Below, in pieces: positions 2,376-22,221 of a DNA stretch of 35,248 nucleotides. The position numbers and the translations under genes were made by a program. This stretch comes from a virus. Below the pieces are notes generated by a model. The model worked only from the letters and a program-made list of their open reading frames with translations, ran no database searches and was not told the origin of the DNA. Location: IMG/VR virus record IMGVR_UViG_3300045051_000222, positions 1-35,248 of that record. The stretch is one strand, 5' to 3'. The number at the start of each line of letters is the position of its first letter. Position 1 is the stretch's first letter.

Positions 2376-3113
2376 ATGAATAACGAGAACAACAAGGTTT
2401 TAGAATTGGAAAGGGGATCGTTAACGCCAATGGAATTGATCCGTCAGGCCGTGGAGAAAGGGACCGGCATCGACGTAGTCGAGAAGCTGATGGACCTCAA
2501 TGATAGGTTCCTGAAAGCGGAGGCGAAAAGGGAGTTCGACGAAGCCATGTCAAAATTTCAGGACAATCCTCCTATCATCTACAAGTCCAAGCAAGTGTCA
2601 TTCGACGGAGGATCGAACCCGGCCTATTCATTCGCACCGCTCCAGACAGTCATAACGGAGGTCCGGAAGGTTGCGTCCCCGCTGGGTCTGTCATTTCACT
2701 GGGAATCAGCGGTCAGCGGAGACAAGACCAGGATCACGTGCATCGTCACGCACACGAAGGGACATTCCAGGTCGAGCTATCTAGAGGCCGGTCTCGACCA
2801 GAGCGGAAAAAAGAACCCAATACAGGGTATGGGATCGAGTATTTCCTACATGAAGCGGTACACGCTGGAACTCGTTTTCGGTCTTTCGGCGTTCGATGAC
2901 GATACGGACGGCCACATCAAAATGGATACCAATGCGTTCACTGATTTCGTCAACGCGATGAAATCGGCATCCACCGTTGAGGAGCTGAAAGACAGGTACG
3001 CGGAAGCCTATAGGTCGGCGGTCAAGGCGAAGGACGGAAACGCCACACTCCAGATCATCGCCGCCAACCAGGCCAGGTACACCGAGTTGACAAAGGCGAA
3101 GGTGAAGAAGTGA
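2376..3113 (+). CDS. erf: Erf-family single-strand annealing protein
   Basis: At 245 residues this matches ERF-superfamily recombinases in size and motif. The central GMGSSISYMKRYTLELVFGL followed by DDDTDG (about residues 149-180) is the family's hallmark. Erf-like proteins form rings on single-stranded DNA and anneal complementary strands, in phage recombination and in genome circularisation or concatemer formation. The gene is followed, with a GTGA overlap, by a YqaJ exonuclease and then SSB: a classic annealase-exonuclease-SSB module like lambda Red or P22 Erf. RBS is GAGGTG ahead of the ATG. Confidence 0.92.
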   Translation: MNNENNKVLELERGSLTPMELIRQAVEKGTGIDVVEKLMDLNDRFLKAEAKREFDEAMSKFQDNPPIIYKSKQVSFDGGSNPAYSFAPLQTVITEVRKVASPLGLSFHWESAVSGDKTRITCIVTHTKGHSRSSYLEAGLDQSGKKNPIQGMGSSISYMKRYTLELVFGLSAFDDDTDGHIKMDTNAFTDFVNAMKSASTVEELKDRYAEAYRSAVKAKDGNATLQIIAANQARYTELTKAKVKK

Positions 3114-3730
3114 AAATCATCGATTGCGAACAAGGAAGCCTGGAGTGGCGCAAGGCCCGGGCCGGGCTGGTCACGGCCAGCATGGTCAGTTCGGTTACTG
3201 CCAAGAAGGACTCGGCCAAGAGGAACGACTACCTATTCCAGATTGTCAGCGAGATCCTGACCGGAGAACCCATCGAGGAGGGTTTCGTCAGCAAGCACAT
3301 GGAGTGGGGGACCGCTCACGAGCCTTTCGCGCGCGGTGCGTACGAGGTCAGGACCGGAGTGACAACCGAGCGCGTAGGTTTTTGCGCGCACGACACGTTG
3401 AGGTCCGGAGCAAGTCCTGACGGATTCGTGGGTAAACACGGACTGGTCGAGATCAAGTGTCCCAAGACCGGAACTCACGTCAAGTACCTTATCGACAACA
3501 AGCCTCCGACGCAATACCTGGACCAGATGCATTGGCAGATGGCTGTCACGGGGCGCAAGTGGTGCGATTTCGTCTCCTTTGATCCGAGGCTAGACGATGA
3601 CAATCAGCTGTTCATAGTCAGGCTCAACCGGGACGAGGAATACATCAACTACCTCACGAAGGAAATCATCGACTTTCTGGATGAGGTTGACTCGACAATC
3701 AAAAAACTAAAATCAAGGAGGTCTAAGTGA
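3110..3730 (+). CDS. YqaJ-like (lambda-exonuclease family) recombination nuclease
   Basis: This 206-residue PD-(D/E)XK nuclease is the exonuclease partner of Erf. Visible features are an N-terminal GSLEWRKARAGLVTAS, EWGTAHEPFAR (about 65-75), the catalytic SPDG with D104, and VEIKCPK with E114 and K116, followed by QYLDQMHWQMAVTG and CDFVSFDPR, all typical of YqaJ proteins. It would resect 5' strands of double-stranded DNA to give the tails Erf anneals. Start is GTG at 3110, overlapping the erf stop by four bases. The stop overlaps the GTG of ssb the same way. Confidence 0.92.
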   Translation: MKIIDCEQGSLEWRKARAGLVTASMVSSVTAKKDSAKRNDYLFQIVSEILTGEPIEEGFVSKHMEWGTAHEPFARGAYEVRTGVTTERVGFCAHDTLRSGASPDGFVGKHGLVEIKCPKTGTHVKYLIDNKPPTQYLDQMHWQMAVTGRKWCDFVSFDPRLDDDNQLFIVRLNRDEEYINYLTKEIIDFLDEVDSTIKKLKSRRSK

Positions 3731-4212
3731 AAGACGCCAACTTTTTGATCCTGACAGGGCGACTCGGGAAGGATTCGGAGCTGTCAAGTACCAGGAACGG
3801 CTCCGCTATCTTAAAATTCTCGATTGCCAACAACAGGCCTGACCGCAAACAGCAGGACGGGACATGGCAGAAGCAACCGCCAAACTGGTTCAACATCACC
3901 ATGTTTGGCACCAGGGCTTCCGCGCTCAATCCGTACCTGGTCAAAGGCCAGACCGTCGTGCTGGAGTGTCATCTGGACGCACGGTCGTGGGATGACAAGG
4001 CGACCGGCCAGAAGAGATACAACACCGGCATTATCGCCGACGAGGTGTATCTGACCGGGGGCAAACGGGATCAGTCCAGCGGAACGACAAACGCAAGACC
4101 GGCGGGCTCCGACTACAGGCAGAACGGAGCACAGGCGAGCCCGGCGGAAGTCCCCGAAGACGCGTTCCCGCCGCCAAACGACATCGCGCCAGACGAAGAA
4201 ATACAATTCTAA
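3727..4212 (+). CDS. ssb: Single-stranded DNA-binding protein
   Basis: The 161-residue protein has an N-terminal OB fold (about 1-112: NFLILTGRLGKDSEL, FSIANNRP, WFNITMFGTRA, VLECHLDARSW, EVYLTGG). A Pro/Gly/Ala-rich linker and an acidic tip ending PDEEIQF follow. The tip resembles the bacterial SSB tail DDDIPF that recruits partner enzymes. It coats single-stranded DNA made by the exonuclease and during replication. GTG start, overlapping the exonuclease stop (GTGA). An intrinsic terminator follows 40 bases later, closing the recombination operon. Confidence 0.95.
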   Translation: MKDANFLILTGRLGKDSELSSTRNGSAILKFSIANNRPDRKQQDGTWQKQPPNWFNITMFGTRASALNPYLVKGQTVVLECHLDARSWDDKATGQKRYNTGIIADEVYLTGGKRDQSSGTTNARPAGSDYRQNGAQASPAEVPEDAFPPPNDIAPDEEIQF

Positions 4213-7805: not shown

Positions 7806-7966
7806 TGCTCGTGCTGTCGCGAAAGGTCCAGGAGAGGGTGACGGTAAAGATATTCGATGTCGAGTTCGATATCGTCATCTGCGAACTGCTGCCCTCTGGT
7901 GTGAAACTCGGAATCGACGGTGACAGCGAGCTGGTCAAAGTGCAGAGAAAAGAAAAATCAACATAG
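7805..7966 (+). CDS. csrA: Phage-encoded CsrA/RsmA-type translational regulator
   Basis: The 53-residue protein begins MLVLSRKVQERVTVK, the nearly invariant CsrA start (MLVLSRKVGE...). It keeps the second half as well: SGVKLGIDGDSELVKVQRKE against the family VrlGIeAP..vsVhREE. L4 and R6 and the later Arg (R48, at the position of CsrA R44), which form the RNA-binding face, are conserved. CsrA dimers bind GGA motifs in hairpin loops and Shine-Dalgarno sites and change translation. The ATG overlaps the preceding stop (TAATG), and the ParB-like gene starts 11 bases after the stop. It could retune host metabolism or time phage genes; the AP of the family is changed to DG. Confidence 0.9.
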   Translation: MLVLSRKVQERVTVKIFDVEFDIVICELLPSGVKLGIDGDSELVKVQRKEKST

Positions 7967-7976
7967 GAGGTCGGTT

Positions 7977-9407
7977 ATGAAGGTTTCGGAGTTGAAGGTC
8001 GCTGACTTGAAGGTCAGCAAGGACAACGTCAGGCAGATGGACGATTTGAAGGACCTGGCGGCCAGCATCAAGGAGAAGGGGATTTTACAGCCCCTGCTGG
8101 TGACGGACAAGGGCGAGATCATCGCCGGGGCCCGGCGGTTCAAGGCCGCGCAGATGGCCGGGTTGGAGACGGTCCCCTGCGTGGTCAGGGAGGACGCGGA
8201 GGAAGCGCAGGACCTGCGGGTCATCGAGAACCTGCAGAGGGAGAACCTGCCGCCCCTAGACGAGGCGCAGGCCATCGACAAGATGCGGAAGGCCGGGGTT
8301 GACATCGAGGAGATCTCCAAGCGGATCGGCAAGACGAAGGGCTACGTCTACCAGCGGCTCAGTCTCCTGGAGCTCCCGGCCTCGGCGCAGAAGCTCATCA
8401 AGTCGGGAGAGCTGCCCATCTCCTCGGCCCTGCTCCTGCTCCGGGTGGACCCGACCAGGCGCGAGGCGTTCTTCAAGGGGCTCGGCGAATGGAGGCTCAA
8501 GGATTTCGATATCGTGAAGGAAGCCGTCGAGGCCGAGAACCTGATCCTCAAGAAGGCCACGTGGAAGCTGAACGACCCCACGGTCCTGCCGGACGCGGGC
8601 GCGTGTTCGCAGTGCCAGAAGCGGACCGGGCGCGACCCTTCGCTGTTCCAGGGGCTGACCGAGAACGACACCTGCCTGGACATCAAGTGCTGGAAGAACA
8701 AGGAAAAGGCGGCGCAGGCCGTCAAGATCATGCAGTACGAGGCGAAGGGCAAGAAGCTGGTGGTCGGCGCGGAGGCGAAGCGGATCGAAAACGGAAGTGC
8801 CTACTGCGCCATGAACGAGCGGTCGTACCAGATCAGGAGCGACCTCCCCATGAAGCAGCTGCTCAAGGACAAGGAAGTCGAGACGGTGTTCATCGAGCGG
8901 GAGGACGGCAAGGTCGCGGAATACGTCAAGCTGTCCGATGCCATCAAGGTCCTGCCGAAGTCGGTGGTGGGTCAGCAGGTCGGCCGCCAGGAAGACCCGA
9001 AGGAGAGGGCGCGTCAGGAGAAAGCCGAAGCGATTGACGAGCTCGTCAGCAAGATGGCCCTCGGGCTCGTCATGGACAAGGTGGAGAAGTCCGGCCTGAC
9101 CACGGAAGTGCTCAGACTTCTGGTAGAGATGGTGGACGATAACGTCTACGCTGACGACAAGCCCGAGATCGACTACAAGAAGGCCAAGCCCTCCGAGATG
9201 CACCGTTTCCTGGCCGCGTGCCTGTTCCTGGAAAACTTCGAGGACCAGATGATCAAGCTGTGCAAGATCGACACAAAGGCCCTGCGGGAAAAGGCGAAAG
9301 AGGAGTACGAGGTCCAGCAGATCAAGGACAAGGCCGACGGGAAGAAGCCCGCGGCGAAGGCCGAGGAAGCCCCCGAGGAAAGCGAGGACGAAGAAGAAGA
9401 CTCATAA
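7977..9407 (+). CDS. ParB/Spo0J-like DNA-binding protein with Cys4 insert
   Basis: The 476-residue protein has an N-terminal ParB domain with GEIIAGARRFKAA (about 46-58) and ENLQREN (84-90), then a helix-turn-helix (about 108-132, ISKRIGKTKGYVYQRLSLLE). A four-Cys motif (C210, C213, C233, C238) follows, as in plasmid and phage ParB-like proteins. The C terminus is long and acidic (EAPEESEDEEEDS). The first two motifs are those used for CTP binding in ParB. No ParA gene is present, so classic partition is doubtful; a transcriptional or maintenance role is as likely. RBS AGGAGG overlaps the csrA stop. Confidence 0.85.
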   Translation: MKVSELKVADLKVSKDNVRQMDDLKDLAASIKEKGILQPLLVTDKGEIIAGARRFKAAQMAGLETVPCVVREDAEEAQDLRVIENLQRENLPPLDEAQAIDKMRKAGVDIEEISKRIGKTKGYVYQRLSLLELPASAQKLIKSGELPISSALLLLRVDPTRREAFFKGLGEWRLKDFDIVKEAVEAENLILKKATWKLNDPTVLPDAGACSQCQKRTGRDPSLFQGLTENDTCLDIKCWKNKEKAAQAVKIMQYEAKGKKLVVGAEAKRIENGSAYCAMNERSYQIRSDLPMKQLLKDKEVETVFIEREDGKVAEYVKLSDAIKVLPKSVVGQQVGRQEDPKERARQEKAEAIDELVSKMALGLVMDKVEKSGLTTEVLRLLVEMVDDNVYADDKPEIDYKKAKPSEMHRFLAACLFLENFEDQMIKLCKIDTKALREKAKEEYEVQQIKDKADGKKPAAKAEEAPEESEDEEEDS

Positions 9408-9415
9408 CCAACCCA

Positions 9416-9460
9416 AGCCGGGCCGGGGTGTTGGGAGGCTCCCGGTCCGGCTGTATTTAC
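9416..9460 (+). terminator. GC-rich hairpin, probable terminator after the ParB-like gene
   Basis: AGCCGGGCCGGGG (9416-9428) pairs with TCCCGGTCCGGCT (9440-9452) over 13 positions with two G-T wobbles, followed by GTATTTA. The stem is strong but the T-run is poor. Its place between two separately started genes supports termination. Confidence 0.5.
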
Positions 9461-9490
9461 GCTTAAAGTTTAACCACTTTATGCCGTAAA
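9456..9490. promoter_or_regulatory. Nested dyad upstream of the integrase gene
   Basis: TTTACG (9456-9461) and CGTAAA (9485-9490) form an outer perfect inverted repeat. AAAGT (9465-9469) and ACTTT (9476-9480) form an inner one with the same centre near 9473. The block lies 17 bases before the integrase ATG, just ahead of its GAGGTGG ribosome site. It could be an operator for the integrase or a recombinase-binding site. I see no good -35/-10 pair here. Confidence 0.4.
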
Positions 9491-9506
9491 ACAAGCGAGG
9501 TGGAAC

Positions 9507-10496
9507 ATGAACTCGCGAGCTGTAGCAAGACAAAACAACCTCTCGAAGAACCTGGCGCATCTGGCAGTTCTTTCCAGCATTTCGATAAAGCTCAGAAAGT
9601 TTCCTGTGGGGGAAATACTACTGAAGCACTTCGACACCTACGTCAGAAGCAACTTGTTGAGCTGGAAGAATTATCGGTACATCCTGAACAACATATTAGC
9701 GTTTTACGGAAAATATGACCTTCCGGAGATCACGAACCAGTCCATCGAGGAGTTCAAGGCGTTCCTGATCCGGATGCATCCGAAGATGAGGCGAACGTCC
9801 ATCAACAGGCATTTGCAGTACCTCAGGTCGGCTCTGAACGTGATCCGGGGGTGGGATGAGAACTTACCTGTTCCGGAGCTTCATTTCAAGCTCTACCCGG
9901 AGAACGACATCCACGACACCGTGGCGTTCTCCGAGATGGAGGTGGCCCGGATGCTCCAGTACCTCCACGACAGACTGCCCAGGAGCGAGTATCTGCTGAC
10001 CTTCATGATGATCGCCCTCAACACGGGGCGCAGGAAGGGGGAGGTCCTGGGCCTGACCAGGGCTCGTGTAGACTTCGTCCGGGACATCATCCACCTGCCG
10101 AGGGGGAAGAACGGTAGGGTCAAGCGCGTCAAGATGAACCAGGTGCTCAAAGCCTACCTCCTGGACCTCAAGCCGAACGGGCCCTACTGGGTCAACATCG
10201 ACGGGGAGCGAATCCACGACATCCGGCACTCATTCAAGAATATGCTGGTAGCCCTCAACATCTACCGCCCCGGCCTGAGACCCCACTGCACGCGGCATAC
10301 GTTCGCCACGAAGGCGCGGGAAGAGGGGTGCGACCTCCTGACACTCAAGACCCTCCTGGGTGTCTCCTCTGTTGAAATGGTCGAGAGATACGCGGAGATC
10401 AGCAACAAAAGCCTGACGAAAGCGGTGGAATCGGCCTCATTCGACCTCCCAGAGCCAGCACCAAGACGTAAACAACAGAATAACAACAAAATATAA
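9507..10496 (+). CDS. int: Tyrosine recombinase / phage integrase
   Basis: The 329-residue protein has an N-terminal SAM-like DNA-binding region (about 35-120) and a catalytic domain. R176 lies in NTGRRKGEVLGL, a likely catalytic Lys near 201, H260 and R263 in HCTRHTFAT, and nucleophile Y295 in MVERYAE. The second His/Trp position usually in LGHSS is Val here (LLGVSS). A second, upstream HDIRHSF (237-243) echoes the HxxRH motif. It would integrate the phage, probably at a tRNA gene given the tRNA-Pro half at 264, or resolve genome dimers. An almost perfect inverted repeat follows the gene. Confidence 0.9.
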   Translation: MNSRAVARQNNLSKNLAHLAVLSSISIKLRKFPVGEILLKHFDTYVRSNLLSWKNYRYILNNILAFYGKYDLPEITNQSIEEFKAFLIRMHPKMRRTSINRHLQYLRSALNVIRGWDENLPVPELHFKLYPENDIHDTVAFSEMEVARMLQYLHDRLPRSEYLLTFMMIALNTGRRKGEVLGLTRARVDFVRDIIHLPRGKNGRVKRVKMNQVLKAYLLDLKPNGPYWVNIDGERIHDIRHSFKNMLVALNIYRPGLRPHCTRHTFATKAREEGCDLLTLKTLLGVSSVEMVERYAEISNKSLTKAVESASFDLPEPAPRRKQQNNNKI

Positions 10497-13547: not shown

Positions 13548-14888
13548 ATGTACGAAAAAGGCGAAATCTTTCTCACCCCAGCCCAGCGCGGGCGCATCGA
13601 GCTCCAGAACAAGTGGGAGAAGATGCTGCACGGCGAGTATCACCACGTCATCCTCATCGACAACAAGGGCGCGAAGGTCCCCGTGGACCCGCTGATTCCC
13701 ATCCCGACCCTGCTCTCTGAGATCTCCGCGGACCTTCTGTTCGGAGAATTCCCCACACTCGATTTCGGCAACACCGACATGAACAAGAAGGTCGAAGCCT
13801 TCCTCCCGTTCGACTTTCCCACCCAGGCGATTGAGTCGGCAACCTACGTATCGGCCATCGGTACGATGTTCTGCTACCTGTTCAAGGCACAGGATCAGGA
13901 CCGCGTGAATTGGTCTTGGATCAGGTCCAATCGCTGTGTGTGGGAAATTGACCCGATCACGAAGAAGCTGAAAGCGTTCCTGATCTTCACGGACGTGTCA
14001 GAGCCGAACGAGCATTTTAATTCGTTCGCCATCCAGGAGCACCGGATCACGGAGGGTCGCTACGTCATCTGGGAATACACAATCAAGGTTCGCAAGGCCG
14101 ACAACGTCGTCGAGTCGCGCGAGATGACCGCGGAAAAGCGCATCGTTCCGTTCGATTTTATCCCGGTCGTCAAGATCGACAACCTGGGCTCGTTCAATTC
14201 CGTCATCGGGAAATCGGACTATTCCGGCGTCGAACAGCTCTTTGCGGAGCTCGACAACAGGATGGACCAGATCAATAACGTCCTGTCTGAGCATGCCGAA
14301 CCGTGGGTGGCCCTGCCGAGCGGGGTGCTTGACCAGAACGGCCAGTTCAACCGGAAGAACGGCAAGATGTTCGAGCGGCTTGCCGGGGATGAGAGCAACA
14401 TTTCCATCACCGCGTGGGATGCTCAGTTGTCATCGGCGTTCGATGCCGTTGACAAGATGATCGAGCTCATCCTGTTCACGCGCCGGATCAGTCCGGCTCT
14501 CGCGGGATATACGAAGGGCGGGTTCGCAGAGTCCGGCCGCGCGCTCAAGTGGCGCATGATCTCAACCCTCTCGATGATCCAGAGGAAGCGCCGATACTGG
14601 GACCAGTTTTTCAGGCAGTTCTTTGAGTTCCTGTTCGCCATGGAGCCGACCTTGAAAGGCATGAGCGCCGACGCCCTGAAACCGAGATGGCAGGACGGTC
14701 TTCCGCTCGATCAGACCGAGGAGATGAGCAACGTCACCTCCGCGGTCAACGCCGGGCTCATGTCGAAGAAGACCGGAATCGTCAAGACCCAGGAGGTTGA
14801 CCTGGACAAGGCCCAGGTGGAGCTCGATCAGATCAACCTCGAACAGCAGAAGGAAGCCGACATCGAGAACACGAAGTTCAGGATCTGA
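13548..14888 (+). CDS. Portal protein (SPP1 gp6-like)
   Basis: The 446-residue protein fits the SPP1 gp6 / Phage_prot_Gp6 portal family in size and order. Its N terminus includes IPIPTLLSEISADLLFGEFP, typical of these portals. VEQLFAELDNRMDQINNVLS and the GYTKGGFAESGRALKWRMIS region (about 322-341) form the clip/stem/crown core. The C terminus is a helical Gln/Glu-rich tail. Twelve copies form the DNA channel at one head vertex. It follows terminase and precedes a Mu F-like protein, the usual order. AGGA lies seven bases before the ATG. Confidence 0.92.
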   Translation: MYEKGEIFLTPAQRGRIELQNKWEKMLHGEYHHVILIDNKGAKVPVDPLIPIPTLLSEISADLLFGEFPTLDFGNTDMNKKVEAFLPFDFPTQAIESATYVSAIGTMFCYLFKAQDQDRVNWSWIRSNRCVWEIDPITKKLKAFLIFTDVSEPNEHFNSFAIQEHRITEGRYVIWEYTIKVRKADNVVESREMTAEKRIVPFDFIPVVKIDNLGSFNSVIGKSDYSGVEQLFAELDNRMDQINNVLSEHAEPWVALPSGVLDQNGQFNRKNGKMFERLAGDESNISITAWDAQLSSAFDAVDKMIELILFTRRISPALAGYTKGGFAESGRALKWRMISTLSMIQRKRRYWDQFFRQFFEFLFAMEPTLKGMSADALKPRWQDGLPLDQTEEMSNVTSAVNAGLMSKKTGIVKTQEVDLDKAQVELDQINLEQQKEADIENTKFRI

Positions 14889-14891
14889 TGA

Positions 14892-15776
14892 ATGGGTAAA
14901 ATGCCGAAGTACATCCTCGCCCGGTCACGCGCCCTTTCAACGCAGATGCTTGGCCTCATCATGGATGTCTTCGGGTTGAGGGCCGATACCGACAGGGCCA
15001 CGCTGACCAACATCAGAATCTGGGCGAAGAAGGTATCCGAGCAGTTCTACCACGGCGTCAGCATGCAGCTGAAGGACGTGGGGTTTCAGTCCTGGTCGAA
15101 GGTTCGCGCCGCGGCCGGCCTAAAGATCAAGGAGGCTGATTTCCTCGAGGCATGGTGGCACGAGATCAGGGCGCTCTCGTCTAAGGACCTCACCGAAGCC
15201 GGGATGATCCAGAAGACGATGATGAAGCGCCTCGGGACCGGGTGGAAGAAGTTCTACGAGGAATTCGACCTTTACTCCAAAACGAACCTCGGGATGTCTG
15301 GATACGACATCAAGAAGAAATTCCTGGAGACCACGGGCAAGCAGTTTGTTTCGTTCGTGGATAAGGGCGGCCGGGAGTGGGACGCCGCGTCGTACGCCGA
15401 GATGTGGGCCCGGACCAGGTCTGCTGAGATCGCTGACGTTGTGGTGCGAGACGAAATGGAAGTCCTGGACATGGACGTCGTTCAGGTGTCGAACGTTAAC
15501 GACACGTGCGAGACGTGCATGCTGTATGACGGCAAGTATTACTCGTTGACGGGCGAGACTGAAGGCCTGCCGGTACTGGACGTCAGGTTCCCGCTCCATC
15601 CGAATTGTCTTCATGACGTCCTGCCGGTCAATGACGATTCGGACAAGATCGACAGGTATATCAAGGTCAACAAGAAGCGTGACGCAAGGATAGAGCAGTC
15701 AAGCAAAAACTGGTCTGACGAGGCGAAAAGCCGCGTTGATCGGCAGCTCGACTGGAACAAAAAACACAGATCGTGA
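14892..15776 (+). CDS. Phage head morphogenesis protein (Mu F / SPP1 gp7-like)
   Basis: The 294-residue protein has the family's C-terminal signature: VSNVNDTCETCMLYDGKYYS followed by PLHPNCLHDVLPV, whose Cys and His residues resemble a metal site. The N-terminal half is helical, with many Lys/Arg. Proteins of this type are minor head components bound to the portal and act in DNA ejection or head assembly. The ATG follows the portal stop by three bases. Confidence 0.88.
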   Translation: MGKMPKYILARSRALSTQMLGLIMDVFGLRADTDRATLTNIRIWAKKVSEQFYHGVSMQLKDVGFQSWSKVRAAAGLKIKEADFLEAWWHEIRALSSKDLTEAGMIQKTMMKRLGTGWKKFYEEFDLYSKTNLGMSGYDIKKKFLETTGKQFVSFVDKGGREWDAASYAEMWARTRSAEIADVVVRDEMEVLDMDVVQVSNVNDTCETCMLYDGKYYSLTGETEGLPVLDVRFPLHPNCLHDVLPVNDDSDKIDRYIKVNKKRDARIEQSSKNWSDEAKSRVDRQLDWNKKHRS

Positions 15777-15885: not shown

Positions 15886-16437
15886 ATGGCTGATGAAAAA
15901 CCGAAGGACCAGGACGGAAAGGATACGAATCGGACGTTCACGCAGTCGGAGCACGACAAGGCGATCTCGGACGCCGTCAACAAGGCGCTCGAACCCTTCA
16001 AGGACTACGAAAGCGTGAAGACCAAGCTGGCGGAGCTGGACAAGGCCAAGGCGGCGGCTGATGCCGCGTCGATGACCGAACTCCAGAAGACCCAGAAGAT
16101 GGTCGAGGATCTCACGGGAAAACTGTCGCAGACGACCGCCGAGCTTTCGACGTGGAAAACCACCGCGGCGAAGGCCGAGGTGCTGTCGGCGCCGGAATTC
16201 GCGTTGCTCCCGAAGGCTTACAGAAACAGCATTTCGGGCTCGACAGCGGAAGAGATCGCGAAGTCAGCGAAGGACATCCTCGCCGAGTTCCAGGAGGACG
16301 TGAAGAAGCTGGGCGCGAAGCCCGGTAACCCGCCGCCTCCGCCCGACAGGCACCATTCCGAAACGGGTCCCAAGAAACCAGCGGAAGCGCTGGCAGAAAA
16401 TCTCGCAAGGAAATTTAATCCCTTCGCGAAAAAATAA
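15886..16437 (+). CDS. Scaffolding protein
   Basis: The 183-residue protein is highly charged and helical, with a long coiled-coil region (about 35-100, KTKLAELDKAKAAADAAS and MVEDLTGKLSQTTAELSTW). A Pro-rich linker (about 147-155) and a basic tail ending ARKFNPFAKK follow. This architecture, and the place just before the capsid gene, is that of DUF4355-type scaffolds. It would guide capsid assembly and leave the mature head; the basic tail probably contacts the coat protein. RBS GAGGAG. Confidence 0.88.
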   Translation: MADEKPKDQDGKDTNRTFTQSEHDKAISDAVNKALEPFKDYESVKTKLAELDKAKAAADAASMTELQKTQKMVEDLTGKLSQTTAELSTWKTTAAKAEVLSAPEFALLPKAYRNSISGSTAEEIAKSAKDILAEFQEDVKKLGAKPGNPPPPPDRHHSETGPKKPAEALAENLARKFNPFAKK

Positions 16438-16449
16438 CGAGGAAACACC

Positions 16450-17406
16450 ATGGGTTCGATGAATGACGTCCTGACGCAGTACAATGTGATCGGGACCAGC
16501 TTTTCCGGCATCAGTGTGAAACCGCTGCGGCCGAAGTACGTTTTCGACGCCGTCGCCAAGGCCAAGGAATGGAACCTCAATTCCAACCCGAACCGCGGAG
16601 ACGGGATCACCTTCCCCATCCTGGGCGCCCTGTCGTCCAACACCGCCGCGCTCTCTGCGACGGTCACCACGATCACCGCCGGCCAGAAGAACAGCTACAC
16701 GCGGCGCTCGATCAACCTGGAGCTCTACGGCGACCACATGCCCGTGGATACGCTCCAGCTCAAGGCCGAGACCTTCGTGGATGACATCTCGGACTACGCC
16801 TTCAGCATGACCGACCAGGCCATGAACTCGCTGAACAAGCTGGCCCGGAGCAAGATGGACCTGAACAAGTACAGCAATGAGGCCTCGGGGACCCTGTCCT
16901 CGACCTACCACGCGTACGGGTCCTACGGCTTCGGCGCCTCCACGGCGGGCCCCCTGAAGGCCAAGACGGTCCGCGCGGTCGTCGCGAAACTCCGCGGCGC
17001 CAACGTGCAGCCCTTCGCCGATGGCCTGTTCTACTGGGTCCTCCCCAGCGCCCAGTACACGCAGCTCCGCGCCGACTCCGGCACGGGCTCCTGGACGTCC
17101 AGCAAGCAGTACGTCGATGCCGGCGTCTCCGAGATCATGAACGGCGACGCGGGTGTCTTCGAGGGGGTGCGCTTCATCATCAACGATGAGGTGAAGGGCG
17201 CCGGGACGAACACGCTGTCGTCCTACTGCTTTGGCCAGGAATTCCTGGGCAAGGCCATCGGGTACGACGTGCGCGTGAAGACCAAGTCCACGCTCGACGG
17301 CCCGCACGAGAACATCCTGACCTTCTTCTGGGATGCGCTCGTCGGCTACAAGACCATCCGGCGCGACGCCGGCGTGGTCGTCCAGACCGTCAGCACCGTC
17401 CAGTAG
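16450..17406 (+). CDS. Major capsid protein (HK97 fold)
   Basis: The 318-residue protein follows scaffold and is ended by an intrinsic terminator, as expected for the most expressed late gene. Its sequence resembles the N4-gp56/P22-like group of HK97-fold coats: an N-terminal PKYVFDAVAKAKEWNLNSNP, a central DDISDYAFSMTDQAMNSLNK helix and a C-terminal GQEFLGKAIGYDVRVKTKST. No head protease is visible, which fits a coat without proteolytic maturation. RBS CGAGGA. Codons are strongly G/C-ending, as in a highly expressed gene. Confidence 0.92.
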   Translation: MGSMNDVLTQYNVIGTSFSGISVKPLRPKYVFDAVAKAKEWNLNSNPNRGDGITFPILGALSSNTAALSATVTTITAGQKNSYTRRSINLELYGDHMPVDTLQLKAETFVDDISDYAFSMTDQAMNSLNKLARSKMDLNKYSNEASGTLSSTYHAYGSYGFGASTAGPLKAKTVRAVVAKLRGANVQPFADGLFYWVLPSAQYTQLRADSGTGSWTSSKQYVDAGVSEIMNGDAGVFEGVRFIINDEVKGAGTNTLSSYCFGQEFLGKAIGYDVRVKTKSTLDGPHENILTFFWDALVGYKTIRRDAGVVVQTVSTVQ

Positions 17407-17421
17407 TCGGAACATCACAAG

Positions 17422-17447
17422 CCGGGGGCCTTCGGGCTCCCGGTTTT
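17422..17447 (+). terminator. Intrinsic terminator with UUCG tetraloop after the capsid gene
   Basis: CCGGGGGCC (17422-17430) and GGCTCCCGG (17435-17443) pair with one wobble around TTCG, followed by TTTT. The stable loop and short T-run suggest partial termination that sets capsid expression above downstream genes. Confidence 0.85.
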
Positions 17448-17462
17448 AATAAGAGGTCCATC

Positions 17463-19481
17463 ATGAAGATTTCAGCCTGTCTGGTTTTGAAGAACGAGGG
17501 AGAGACGATACTGCGTTGTCTCGATTCCCTTGTGGGTATCGCCGACGAGATCATAGTCGGCATCGACTCGGCCACATCCGACAACACAGCGCAGGAAGTC
17601 GAGAAATTCTTCAAGTTCCAGAAGGGCATTCCCCACGTCGTGTATACCTTCACCTGGGACAACGATTTCAGTAAGGCCAGGAACGAGGGCATGGACAAGG
17701 CCACGGGTGACTACATCCTCATCATGGACGGCCACGAATACTTCCCCGAGCGCTGGTATAACATCTCCGAGGGGTCCGTCATCCCTGTGCGCGATGTCGT
17801 GAAATCCATCGTCAAGAAGACGATCGAGGAACAGAAGCCGGATGACTGCCTCATCCAGCTGTACCAGCAGCCGTTCATCGGCGAAACACCGAACAATTTC
17901 TTCATGCAGCCCAGGATCTACCGGAATGACCCGAAGATTCGTTTCGGCAGGGCCGCCCATAACACCATCAAGAACACGAATCCCGAGAAGTCCATCCATT
18001 TCCCTGAGATCATCCTGATCCACGACGCCCCCGAATCGAACAGGACAGAGCGGGCGAAACAGCGCGTCGAAATGAATATCATCGCGCTCAACAAAGACCT
18101 AGAGAAGGATCCCGCGGACTGGCGGGCGATGTTCTACCTCGGCAATACCCTGCTTGAGGCCGAGCGGTATCAGGAAGCCATCGGTGTCTACGACCGATAC
18201 TTCGAGACCGCGCCGTACGACAATTCCGAAAAATACCAGGCATACATCCATAAGGCGCTCTGCCTTCGCGGTGTCGATGAGTTCCCCAAAATGAGGGACG
18301 CGCTGTCGCTGGCAATAGGCATCGACCCGGTTCGGCGCGATGCGTACATCCTCATGGCCGAGGCGTACATCGGCAGGAAGGAGTATGACGCCGCGCTGTT
18401 CTACGTGAAACAGGCCCTCAGCCAGTCGCTCAAGACGTCGCGGATGTTCCAGTCCGGGTCCGCTTCGACATGGCATCCGCACTACCTTGCGGCTGTGTGT
18501 TACGAACAACTTAAGATGGTTCCCGACACCATCGCCAGTCTCAAGTCTGCGTACCGATACCAGCCCCGGCCAGAGTGGGCGGAGATGATCCGGAAACTCA
18601 GCGGCGCGTTCAACGTCCTCATCGTGGATTCTGTCGGTTCGTTCACCAAGAGCCTGTCCGACCACCTCATCAAGCGCGAGTACAACGTCTGCTCGAGCAA
18701 GTCTTACGTTCAGCGCCTGGGCGAGTGGGCGGATTTCATCTTCTGCGAGTGGGCTGACCCCGAGGCCGCCAAAGCAAGCCAGGATCAGCCTGAGAAGACG
18801 GTCATCCGGCTTCACGGTTACGAAGCATACGCGCTGGAGAACCTTTGGCCCCAGATCAGGTTCAACAACGTCAAGAAAACGATTTTCGTGGCGGGACATG
18901 TCCGGGACCGCATGGTCGAGAAGGCGGGTATCCGGCCTGATGCGACGGTGGTTATTCCCAACGGGGTGGATATCGACAAGTTCAAGATCACCACGCTCAC
19001 GCGGGACGAGCGGTCAATCGGATACGCCGGGTTCATCAACGAGAAGAAGAACCCGTTCCTGCTTCTCCAAATCATCAAGCGGAATCCCGGATTCATCTTC
19101 CACCTTCGGGCCGACTTCCAGTCCCCCTACTGGAAGGCGACATTTGACCACGAACTCCGGGACTGCCGGAATGTCGTATTCCACGGACGGTACGAAAACC
19201 TGTCCGAGTTCTGGAACCAAATGAGCGGCGTGATCTCGACGTCCATCATCGAATCGTTCAGCTTTAACGTGGCCGAGGCGATGGCCTGCGGGTGCGTCCC
19301 GTACATCTACTCCTGGAACGGAGCGCGGGATATCTGGGACCCCAAGTGGATCTTCGACACGTTCCCGGAATTCAGGGCGGACGTCACCCCGGAGGACCGG
19401 AGGGCGGTCAGGGAATACGTGGCCGAGCGCTATCCGCTCGACAAGAACCTCGCTGAACTCGAAAAGGTGCTCGTGTCATGA
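17463..19481 (+). CDS. Two-domain glycosyltransferase: GT2, TPR linker, GT4-like
   Basis: The 672-residue protein has an N-terminal GT2 (GT-A fold) domain (1 to about 200) with ISACLVLKNEGETILRCLDS, DEIIVGIDSATSDNT and NEGMDKATGDYILIMDGHEY, the acidic DXD-like site. Tetratricopeptide repeats follow (about 210-325, WRAMFYLGNTLLEAERYQEA). The C terminus is GT-B/GT4-like (about 385-672) with VIPNGVDIDKF, IGYAGFINEKKNPFLLLQII and the sugar-nucleotide-site-like SIIESFSFNVAEAMACGCVP. It could make two linkages. It heads a cassette of four glycosyltransferases placed just after the capsid terminator. RBS AGAGG. Target may be virion protein or host surface glycan. Confidence 0.88.
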   Translation: MKISACLVLKNEGETILRCLDSLVGIADEIIVGIDSATSDNTAQEVEKFFKFQKGIPHVVYTFTWDNDFSKARNEGMDKATGDYILIMDGHEYFPERWYNISEGSVIPVRDVVKSIVKKTIEEQKPDDCLIQLYQQPFIGETPNNFFMQPRIYRNDPKIRFGRAAHNTIKNTNPEKSIHFPEIILIHDAPESNRTERAKQRVEMNIIALNKDLEKDPADWRAMFYLGNTLLEAERYQEAIGVYDRYFETAPYDNSEKYQAYIHKALCLRGVDEFPKMRDALSLAIGIDPVRRDAYILMAEAYIGRKEYDAALFYVKQALSQSLKTSRMFQSGSASTWHPHYLAAVCYEQLKMVPDTIASLKSAYRYQPRPEWAEMIRKLSGAFNVLIVDSVGSFTKSLSDHLIKREYNVCSSKSYVQRLGEWADFIFCEWADPEAAKASQDQPEKTVIRLHGYEAYALENLWPQIRFNNVKKTIFVAGHVRDRMVEKAGIRPDATVVIPNGVDIDKFKITTLTRDERSIGYAGFINEKKNPFLLLQIIKRNPGFIFHLRADFQSPYWKATFDHELRDCRNVVFHGRYENLSEFWNQMSGVISTSIIESFSFNVAEAMACGCVPYIYSWNGARDIWDPKWIFDTFPEFRADVTPEDRRAVREYVAERYPLDKNLAELEKVLVS

Positions 19482-20134
19482 ATCAGGTCACAGCCATCAT
19501 CATTCACTACCGCAGGCAGTCTAACATCCCGCACATCGTCGGCGCCATCATGGAGCAGACGGTCCCGGCTGATATCTGGATCTGGGATAACCAGAACGTG
19601 TTCACCGAGATAAACGGGGTCACGCTCTTCAGCTCCAGCAAGAACTTCGTCTGTCGCCCCCGGTTCATCCTGGCGGGTATGGTCCAGACTCCGTACGTGT
19701 TCAACTGCGACGATGACCACATCGTCAAGGACAAGCAGTTGTTCGAGAAGATGATCGCGCTCTCGAAGGAGAAGCCCGACTGCTTCTGGGGCTGGCCGGC
19801 GCGGAAGGAATACAACAACTCCCCCCAGAGGGACGCAGAGGGCATTCCCGCAGACCTGGTCAATACTGGGATCAGCTTCTACCCGACACGGCTCATCAAC
19901 AAGATCATGGCGAATCCGTACATCAACGATTCCGACAAGTTCCAGATGACCGAAGAAGAGTACAGATACGCGGACGACCACTGGATCTCAGCCCAGCTCC
20001 CGCTCAAGATCGCGCACCCCACGCTGGAAGCGGGTATCGGTAAGATGTATGACCACGGCGTGGCTCTCAGCAGGGACCCGAGGCACATCCCGATACGCGA
20101 GGCCGCGGCCCGCAAGTTCTGGGGGAACGCATGA
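19478..20134 (+). CDS. GT2-like glycosyltransferase, short
   Basis: The 218-residue protein is a GT-A fold enzyme. It shows TAIIIHYRRQSNIPHIVGAI, WIWDNQN and FNCDDDHIVKDKQLFEKMIA with an acidic DDD that would bind metal and UDP-sugar. A helical C terminus follows. It is shorter than free-standing GT2 enzymes, and the acceptor part looks reduced. The start overlaps the preceding stop (ATGA), so its synthesis is coupled to the big glycosyltransferase. Confidence 0.78.
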   Translation: MNQVTAIIIHYRRQSNIPHIVGAIMEQTVPADIWIWDNQNVFTEINGVTLFSSSKNFVCRPRFILAGMVQTPYVFNCDDDHIVKDKQLFEKMIALSKEKPDCFWGWPARKEYNNSPQRDAEGIPADLVNTGISFYPTRLINKIMANPYINDSDKFQMTEEEYRYADDHWISAQLPLKIAHPTLEAGIGKMYDHGVALSRDPRHIPIREAAARKFWGNA

Positions 20135-20847
20135 AGCTCTCGGTCATCATGCCTTTCTTCAACCGCCCGCAGTACATGCGGCAGGCCATGGATTCGTTCG
20201 TCGATCAGAGCATCAACGGCGAGTTCGGAAGCGCAGACGATATCGAGCTCGTTGCGGTCAACAACGGCGGGACCATCCCCGAATACATCGGCGAGTACAG
20301 GAGCAAGATCAAGCACTTTGTCCTGGTCGATAAGACGGCAGGCAACTCCATCACGCCGATCAACACGGGTATCTTGCGCTCGTCCGGGGAATGGATTACC
20401 CAGCTCCACGACGATGACACGCTGACGCCGGATTCAATCCAGACAAGGCTCGAATACATCAAGGCCGCCGAAAAACTCGGCATCGAAGTTCTGTGCTTTG
20501 GCATGCACAAGATGAACAATGCGGGGAACAGGACGGGGTACTACCCGGCCCTCCCCATCTCGGCCATCGGGATGCTCGGCAAGGAGTTGGTCCCGTTCGC
20601 CGTCATGACGTGGAAGGCCTCCATCATTAAGCGGTTCGGACCGCTTGATGAATCGCTCCCGATGCAGGCGGACTACCTCTTCAAGATCCGTTGCGCGATG
20701 GAGTGTTCGTGCGCCTCGATCAATATTCCCGTCTATAACTACAGGAGCCATCCCGGACAGGAGTCCGTCAGGCTCCGGAGCGTCAAGGACGCCGAAACTG
20801 AACGTCTTGCTCAGATCGTAAACCAGCTTTATGGAGGTCATCGATGA
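20131..20847 (+). CDS. GT2 glycosyltransferase
   Basis: The 238-residue protein has the family's opening KLSVIMPFFNRPQYMRQAMD, a VAVNNGGTIPEYI strand, and WITQLHDDDTLTPDSIQTRL with the DXD acidic triad (about 92-94). A later GPLDESLPMQADYLFKIRCA matches the GT2 acceptor-side region. Probably a cytoplasmic sugar transferase. Start overlaps the previous stop (ATGA); the end overlaps the next start (ATGA). Confidence 0.85.
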   Translation: MKLSVIMPFFNRPQYMRQAMDSFVDQSINGEFGSADDIELVAVNNGGTIPEYIGEYRSKIKHFVLVDKTAGNSITPINTGILRSSGEWITQLHDDDTLTPDSIQTRLEYIKAAEKLGIEVLCFGMHKMNNAGNRTGYYPALPISAIGMLGKELVPFAVMTWKASIIKRFGPLDESLPMQADYLFKIRCAMECSCASINIPVYNYRSHPGQESVRLRSVKDAETERLAQIVNQLYGGHR

Positions 20848-21716
20848 AGGTCACCATTTGTGTCATCAACTACAACGACAAGACCAGGGTTTCGCGCGCC
20901 ATCACATCGGCGTTGAACCAGACCTGGCATGACAAGGAAGTCATCGTCGTGGACGACGGGTCGGACGCGGAGACAAGGAACATCTACGGTCAGTTCTCGG
21001 ACCGTATCAAACTAATCCAGTTGGAGCGCGAAGACGTCAGGGAGCGGAACCCCTCGCGCCCGCGCAACGCAGGTCTCAAGGCCGCCTCGGGAGAGTTCAT
21101 CTGCTTTCTGGATTCGGACAATTACTATGACTCCCGCTTCGTCGAGGAGTCCATGAGGGACATCGTTGACGTGTCGTTCTGCGACTGGGAGATCATCGGC
21201 CTCGACAACTACAAGATCAGAATGATGGACGCGTGGGATCTGAAGCGCGGCATCTTGGAGAACTACCTGTCGAAAAACCACTTGGACCACCAGTGCCTAC
21301 TGATCCGGACCGAGGTCATGCGGAAGGTCGGCGGGTACGACGAGCGCTTCCCTAGGTCCCAGGACTGCGACCTCATGGTCAGGCTCATGCTGGGAACGTC
21401 GAGCTGGGTCTACGTGGATAAGCCCCTGTTCTTCTTCGAGAAACACGAGAAGGGCCAGACCAAGGGGTTAGCATCCATCTACGGAAAGACCCTGTGGACA
21501 CTGAAGAACCAGTTGAATGCAACATGGCTCTTTCCGTACATGAAGACTCCCGCCGCGCTCCTGGCATACATCCAGGCGTTCAACACGTTTTTGACCGATC
21601 CCGCGTGGTCGAACGACGCTGAGAAACTGAGGGCCGCGGCCAAGAACGTGGCGGACGAGATCACGGAACAGAGCAGCGAACCGGCCCCCGCCGGGTTTGC
21701 GGTAGTCAAGGAGTAA
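20844..21716 (+). CDS. GT2 glycosyltransferase
   Basis: The 290-residue protein is the most canonical GT2 of the set: VTICVINYNDKTRVSRAITS, KEVIVVDDGSDAETRNIYGQ, then RPRNAGLKAASGEFICFLDS with the SDN acidic site, and GGYDERFPRSQDCDLMVRLM, the usual acceptor/base motif. The C-terminal 60 residues are helical with no membrane segment. RBS GGAGG, ATGA overlap. The cassette ends here; the connector gene begins five bases later. Confidence 0.9.
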   Translation: MKVTICVINYNDKTRVSRAITSALNQTWHDKEVIVVDDGSDAETRNIYGQFSDRIKLIQLEREDVRERNPSRPRNAGLKAASGEFICFLDSDNYYDSRFVEESMRDIVDVSFCDWEIIGLDNYKIRMMDAWDLKRGILENYLSKNHLDHQCLLIRTEVMRKVGGYDERFPRSQDCDLMVRLMLGTSSWVYVDKPLFFFEKHEKGQTKGLASIYGKTLWTLKNQLNATWLFPYMKTPAALLAYIQAFNTFLTDPAWSNDAEKLRAAAKNVADEITEQSSEPAPAGFAVVKE

Positions 21717-21720
21717 GTAT

Positions 21721-22221
21721 ATGCCCATCCATCTATCGATTGCGACGGCCACGGCGGACAGCTATATCAGCGTCTCCGCGGCGAACACCTATTTCCTGAC
21801 CCGGTCAGGTTCTGAGGCTTGGACCAAGGTCGTGCAGAACTCGACAGGGACGCTGTCGGCAACCTCCAAGAAGGAACGGCTCCTGGTGCAGGCCTGCCGC
21901 GAGATCGACCGTTCGTTCCGTTTCTACGGGGCGAAGTACAACGGTGGTCAGGTCGGAGACATCGACTACCAGGCGATGGAGTTCCCGCGGTCGGGCGACA
22001 TCAACGCCAGCGGAGATCCATACATCAAGCAGGAATTGAAGGACGCCGCCTGCGAGCAGGTTCTGTGGATATTGGAACGCGGCGGGAAGCGGACCGAGGA
22101 GAACGGAAGCGTCTCCTTTCCCGCGGTCATCGGCGCCAGCGTTACCCCGCTCATGCGGAAGCTCTCGACGCGCGTTGTGACGGCGACCGGCAGGCCCCCG
22201 TGGGCCGGGAGCGACTACTGA
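21721..22221 (+). CDS. Head-tail connector (DnaT-like-annotated adaptor family)
   Basis: The 166-residue protein resembles the family often named putative DnaT-like ssDNA-binding protein, which in phages sits at the head-tail connector position. Visible matches are DSYISVSAANTYFLTRSG, KKERLLVQACREIDRSFRFY, then DYQAMEFPRSGD and LKDAACEQVLWIL. It probably forms the adaptor ring below the portal rather than acting in replication. RBS AAGGAGT. The glycosyltransferase cassette separates it from the capsid gene, where it would normally follow directly. Confidence 0.78.
   Translation: MPIHLSIATATADSYISVSAANTYFLTRSGSEAWTKVVQNSTGTLSATSKKERLLVQACREIDRSFRFYGAKYNGGQVGDIDYQAMEFPRSGDINASGDPYIKQELKDAACEQVLWILERGGKRTEENGSVSFPAVIGASVTPLMRKLSTRVVTATGRPPWAGSDY

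Follow-up and report, generated by a model that had tools for sequence, protein, structure and literature searches.

Why would a phage place glycosyltransferase genes between its major capsid protein (MCP) gene and its connector genes, and on what substrate would the encoded enzymes act? The locus that raises this question lies in a linear IMG/VR viral record of 35,248 bases, the whole of which was analysed and is referred to here as the window. A preliminary description of this DNA had reported a cassette of four glycosyltransferases between capsid and connector genes, and its boundaries are exact (17463–21716, with the MCP gene before it and the head-tail adaptor gene Ad1 after it). The region contains the following features:

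12034: terminase, upstream flank of the cassette
13548: portal, upstream flank
14892: minor head protein, upstream flank
15886: scaffold, upstream flank
16450–17406, + strand: MCP, the proposed substrate (phrog_1357 major head protein, E = 4.8e-17)
17419–17446, + strand: hairpin terminator or attenuator between MCP and GT1 (GC-rich stem of 12 pairs, U tail)
17463–19481, + strand: GT1, 672 aa, GT2-TPR-GT4 (Pfam)
19478–20134, + strand: P0002, possible GT-A enzyme, accessory and variable (sub-threshold GT2 match)
20131–20847, + strand: P0003, GT2 glycosyltransferase, accessory (PF00535, E = 1.7e-14)
20844–21716, + strand: P0004, GT2 glycosyltransferase, conserved last glycosyltransferase of the cassette (PF00535, E = 3e-22)
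21721–22221, + strand: Ad1, head-tail adaptor (phrog_477, E = 2.8e-11; 42–52% in relatives)
24403: tape measure, downstream of Ad1

Each pair of neighbouring cassette genes shares four bases (ATGA) and Ad1 begins four bases past P0004, so the cassette is coupled to the connector genes; there is no terminator in this four-base spacing. The GC content of the cassette (0.57–0.58) is the same as that of its flanks and thus gives no sign of recent insertion. As first described, the cassette follows a capsid terminator: the hairpin at this position is strong (ΔG −24.6 kcal/mol, z −3.7) and carries a U tail. A GC-rich hairpin with a U run is found in 17 of 18 distinct MCP–GT1 gaps, the exception being the relative L004. 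A consensus scan of the + strand between 12,000 and 26,000 gave no promoter-like site. The cassette therefore lacks the features of a prophage moron (own promoter, own terminator and sporadic presence); in contrast to such sporadic presence, GT1 was found in all close MCP relatives whose sequence allowed a reading. An antisense ORF of 384 aa across the MCP gene (16264–17418) was taken as a reading-frame artefact.

The preliminary description had raised the question of whether other phages carry the same insertion, and approximately 20 divergent phages do carry the MCP–GT1 pair. In each of the 25 viral contigs that show both genes, GT1 is the gene immediately after an MCP homologue, with a gap of 45–282 bases. 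Because these contigs include near-identical copies we quote ∼ 20 distinct phages, and a pair that recurs in so many divergent phages is not due to chance. Three more GT1 contigs begin inside GT1 and are uninformative on MCP adjacency. Direct searches with GT1 and MCP gave the window's own species from two other samples (L002 and L003) and also L004, the first of the distant relatives; alignment-based scans widened the set. About nine distinct near phages have MCPs that are 48–62% and GT1s that are 43–53% identical to those of the window (blastp), and about 11 distinct far phages have MCPs at 23–31% and GT1s at 28–32% to the near phages. The lowest identities to the window are 25% (MCP) and 28% (GT1). 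All relatives are metagenomic and many are fragments. A pattern scan of 84,980 species genomes detected relatives of neither MCP nor GT1, and a full-length GT1 was not found in any isolate phage. Pattern-based scans, here and elsewhere in the analysis, detect only those MCPs in which the patterns are retained.

Contigs found through GT1 necessarily have GT1, and MCP-first scans were therefore run to control for this bias. GT1 was the next gene in 10 of 10 informative contigs of the near clade and in all 12 far-clade contigs running past the MCP gene, that is, in 22/22 informative contigs of the two close clades. It was next in none of six cases where the MCP is 31–43% identical to the far clade, and was absent from those isolate phages of Streptomyces, Bacillus, Vibrio, Bacteroides and Escherichia with a related MCP that were examined. 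GT1 is therefore bound to two MCP clades. The identities of MCP and GT1 correlate overall (r = 0.89) and within clades (near, r = 0.77, Mantel p = 0.012; far, r = 0.65, p = 0.0004). The two trees have 7 of 13 splits in common and conflict mostly at weak nodes; since the conflicts at L019+L033 (support 100 for GT1) and L004+L015 (98 for MCP) are well supported, some exchange may have occurred. In relatives GT1 (46–53%) and MCP (51–62%) are more conserved than terminase (30–44%) and portal (36–45%), and in far-clade records of 72–87 kb all GT2-domain genes found sit in the cassette. The cassette has long been in a fixed association with the capsid gene, and this linkage across deep divergence strengthens the earlier claim that it is co-expressed with the virion genes.

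GT1 comprises a GT2 domain (approximately residues 1–215), TPR helices (∼ 190–380) and a GT4 domain (382–672). These Pfam domains, together with fold matches for both halves, uphold the GT2-TPR-GT4 fusion described earlier. An AlphaFold model was built from 11 homologues (pLDDT 88.7). In this predicted model residues 1–302 superimpose on SunS (7msp_A; Z 24.4, rmsd 2.7, 275 aligned) and residues 382–672 on the GT4 enzyme 2jjm_A (Z 28.2, rmsd 2.5). The best Foldseek matches of GT1 were SunS (7msn first) and ThuS, followed by SPY and OGT. The latter two are TPR protein glycosyltransferases; their likeness was dropped as family evidence, with an rmsd of 17–20 Å over the whole chain. In sequence comparisons the front half matches SunS (E = 2e-17) and GmaR (22ao; 6e-18 for the single sequence, 1e-30 for the profile). 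The metal motif of the GT2 domain, D89-G-H91 (DGH), is invariant in the 11 homologues and, since polypeptide GalNAc-transferases use a DxH motif, is consistent with an active enzyme. E597 and E605 are also invariant in the 11 homologues, and the C-terminal half has both the GT-B fold and the EX7E motif that mark a GT4 enzyme.

SunS and ThuS are peptide S-glycosyltransferases, SunS being encoded by prophage SPbeta. GT1 shares with them a GT2 domain followed by TPR helices, but it is fused to a GT4 domain and scores far under the curated cut-off of the SunS family TIGR04195 (46.4 against 350 bits). Like GmaR, the Listeria flagellin O-GlcNAc transferase, it is a TPR protein with a GT2 domain, and the two GT2 domains are homologous; however, GmaR has a DxD motif where GT1 has DxH, and a C-terminal antirepressor domain where GT1 has GT4. 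GmaR acts on a protein, with its TPR region as the proposed binding site for the substrate (PMC9638930). In sequence and in its predicted model, the lead enzyme of the cassette thus resembles the GmaR/SunS group of protein or peptide glycosyltransferases, which lends weight to the cytoplasmic location and protein target suggested previously.

The count of four glycosyltransferases holds clearly for three (GT1, P0003 and P0004) and weakly for P0002, which had no curated family match by hmmscan. P0002 gave a sub-threshold GT2 match (18.4 bits), a 7% probability in comparison with the P0004 profile and a predicted structure with pLDDT 40. It is likely a GT-A enzyme, because it has a DDD motif and a homologue that is 53% identical and occurs only in L013. 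P0003 and P0004 are GT2 proteins with a DxD motif, in P0004 the invariant D90/D92. P0003 has weak matches to TarP and PglI (best PDB match TarP, 1.2e-6) and the P0004 profile matches TarP, TarS and chondroitin synthase. P0004 homologues are 47–60% identical in near relatives and ∼ 30% in far ones; a P0004-type GT2 ends the glycosyltransferase run in near phages with a complete cassette, and a more distant one is found in most far phages. The cassette has no membrane segments, as had been stated: the maximum 19-residue hydropathy is 1.58 and falls inside the GT2 core fold.

Where the window has P0002 and P0003, its relatives have other middle genes. L004 encodes a methyltransferase, an MptE-like protein and a sulfotransferase. 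Methyltransferases also occur in L006, L008, L013, L014 (by similarity to L006, at the start only) and L015, the last of which has a pyruvyl transferase in addition. L018 and L034 carry an extra GT4 and an NAD epimerase, and L034 also a DegT aminotransferase. A fixed starter with exchangeable finishers fits a glycan with a constant acceptor linkage and a variable outer part.

We consider it likely that the cassette is a cytoplasmic virion-glycosylation system, most likely acting on the capsid. What is observed is the gene order and its coupling, the folds with their motifs, and the conservation and co-divergence with MCP; from these we infer which substrate is modified, through which linkage, in what sequence of steps and to what end. 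A leaky terminator after the capsid gene would let some transcripts continue into the enzymes and connectors, and a small amount of enzyme would serve many capsid subunits. In the cytoplasm, the TPR region of GT1 would hold a virion protein, most likely MCP, since this is the sole constant neighbour of GT1 and co-diverges with it. The SunS/GmaR-like GT2 domain would then put the first sugar directly on a side-chain and the GT4 domain would add the second. P0004 and the variable enzymes may extend or decorate the glycan, which could shield the particle or change its surface. In contrast to SunS/ThuS targets, the MCPs of the set have no conserved cysteine (0–3 each); a Ser/Thr acceptor is therefore probable and Cys unlikely. 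A Ser/Thr tail at the MCP C-terminus, the end that bears the glycans in mycobacteriophages, does not discriminate as a glycosite signature: the last 12 residues hold 3.8 Ser/Thr in GT1-bearing and 2.9 in GT1-lacking relatives (p = 0.09). Ser/Thr columns that are kept in GT1-bearing MCPs and rare in others correspond to S142, T152, S158 and S257 of the window but are confounded by phylogeny, because the GT1-lacking MCPs are also more distant. More tentatively, and leaning slightly against its holding in full, we propose that the cassette may be a capsid-glycosylation machine that belongs to the core genes of a broad clade of uncultured phages and is inherited vertically. Its single-chain GT2-TPR-GT4 enzyme would start and extend a glycan directly on the capsid without a lipid carrier and co-evolve with MCP, and exchangeable tailoring would yield sulfated, methylated or pyruvylated coats.

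The main rival is that the cassette alters a cytoplasmic cell-wall or envelope glycan precursor, blocking superinfection or re-adsorption of released phage. It ranks first among the rivals because GT2 and tailoring genes have a similar appearance whether they serve virions or host surfaces, and because TarP-type enzymes, too, are soluble, so that a host-surface role is compatible with a cassette that has no membrane segments. TarP, which is prophage-borne, modifies wall teichoic acid. Like TarP and TarS, P0003 and P0004 are GT2 enzymes, and by sequence they match teichoic-acid and exopolysaccharide glycosyltransferases about as well as protein-glycan ones. The sulfo-, pyruvyl- and methyltransferases, epimerase and aminotransferase of the relatives are also typical of surface polysaccharides. 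With an integrase in the window, a role in lysogeny is also conceivable, and adjacency to MCP could reflect late co-expression and not a pairing of enzyme and substrate. However, GT2 cross-matches are generic, whereas the conserved lead enzyme groups with protein glycosyltransferases, and its place behind MCP is fixed with no promoter-like site there on the + strand. TarP and TarS are not known to work with a GT1-like partner or to be linked to a capsid gene. GtrA (PF04138) was not found in the window or in the records, possibly fragments, of eight relatives, which argues against Gtr O-antigen conversion. Among nine GT1-bearing records searched, many of them fragments, only the window has an integrase; as far as fragments show, a temperate lifestyle is therefore not a common trait. 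We regard modification of the host surface as unlikely. Of the alternative targets for sugar addition named in the preliminary description it nevertheless stays live, whereas DNA is disfavoured.

Less probable still is that the glycosylated protein is a tail, fibre, decoration or host protein and not MCP. TPR enzymes can serve several proteins, and plausible substrates, large structural or Laminin_G-like proteins, lie between the cassette and Ad1 in some relatives: a phrog_1645 head 'virion structural protein' directly after the cassette in L006 (3.5e-89) and Laminin_G_3 proteins in L004 and L014. The position of the L006 gene also speaks for virion glycosylation as such. In the window this interval is empty of such genes although GT1 is kept, so these structural or lectin-like genes are not required partners, and the only partner always adjacent to GT1 is MCP. 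Glycosylation of modified bases in phage DNA, for which virus glycosyltransferases are known (Pyle et al. 2024, as cited in PMC12619734), is scarcely credible given the head-operon position, the protein-type GT1 and the larger genes of the left arm, none of which is a base-modification gene. A thymidylate-synthase-type hydroxymethylase (PF00303) was not found in nine records; as these include fragments and other routes exist, its absence tells against DNA glucosylation without being final.

Capsid glycosylation, the reading we prefer, has a precedent. The phage glycosyltransferases of mycobacteriophages Che8 (gp110), Corndog (gp38) and Myrna glycosylate capsid and tail-tube proteins (Freeman et al. 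2023, via PMC12363180 and PMC12619734). As reported there, the enzymes are phage-encoded, several are coupled in Che8 (gp108–110), and the proposed targets are capsid and tail proteins. Unlike the cassette, the Che8 genes lie at the right genome end, and in Che8 the adaptor gene comes immediately after the capsid gene. A TPR or GT4 fusion was not seen in Che8, and its glycosyltransferases do not match the GT1, P0002 or P0004 profiles (best single match P0004 against gp108, E = 0.001). The suggestion of an undescribed virion-glycosylation system thus stands in part: the class of function is known; new, set against these accounts, are the type of enzyme and its fixed place behind MCP, together with the tailoring genes and the group of phages. 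In the same accounts, virion glycosylation has so far been shown in a few mycobacteriophages. If our reading is true, sugar-coated capsids would be a lasting character of an entire phage lineage other than these, across MCPs that are only 25–30% identical. For laboratory tests the cassette would offer a small group of enzymes and a predicted protein for them to act on, and the relatives a set of naturally occurring capsids on which the surface glycan would vary with exchange of the middle genes.

The window and its relatives hold other genes of possible interest. No tRNA was found in the window and PADLOC gave no match for a defence function. A tyrosine integrase (9507–10496) and a ParB-like protein (7920–9407) indicate that the phage is possibly temperate or plasmid-like, and a recombination set at 2376–4212 comprises an Erf annealing protein, a YqaJ exonuclease and SSB. 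Variable structural or Laminin_G-like proteins in the cassette–adaptor interval (L006 9727–11532, L008 12127–13893, L014 6759–7874, L004 17054–18543) are candidate head fibres or decoration proteins. L004 combines an upstream APS kinase (3395–3883) with its sulfotransferase (14460–15152), a possible route to sulfated glycans, and L008 encodes a PAPS reductase-domain protein upstream of terminase (69–881). By eye, the L075 cassette has a sulfotransferase-like protein (IPKTAGTF; 8752–9339) and a GT8-like protein (9332–10093). Near the scaffold gene of far relatives we observed a ketoacyl synthase III (L021, 3143–4057) and an AMP-ligase with a hexapeptide protein (L017, 5872–7901).
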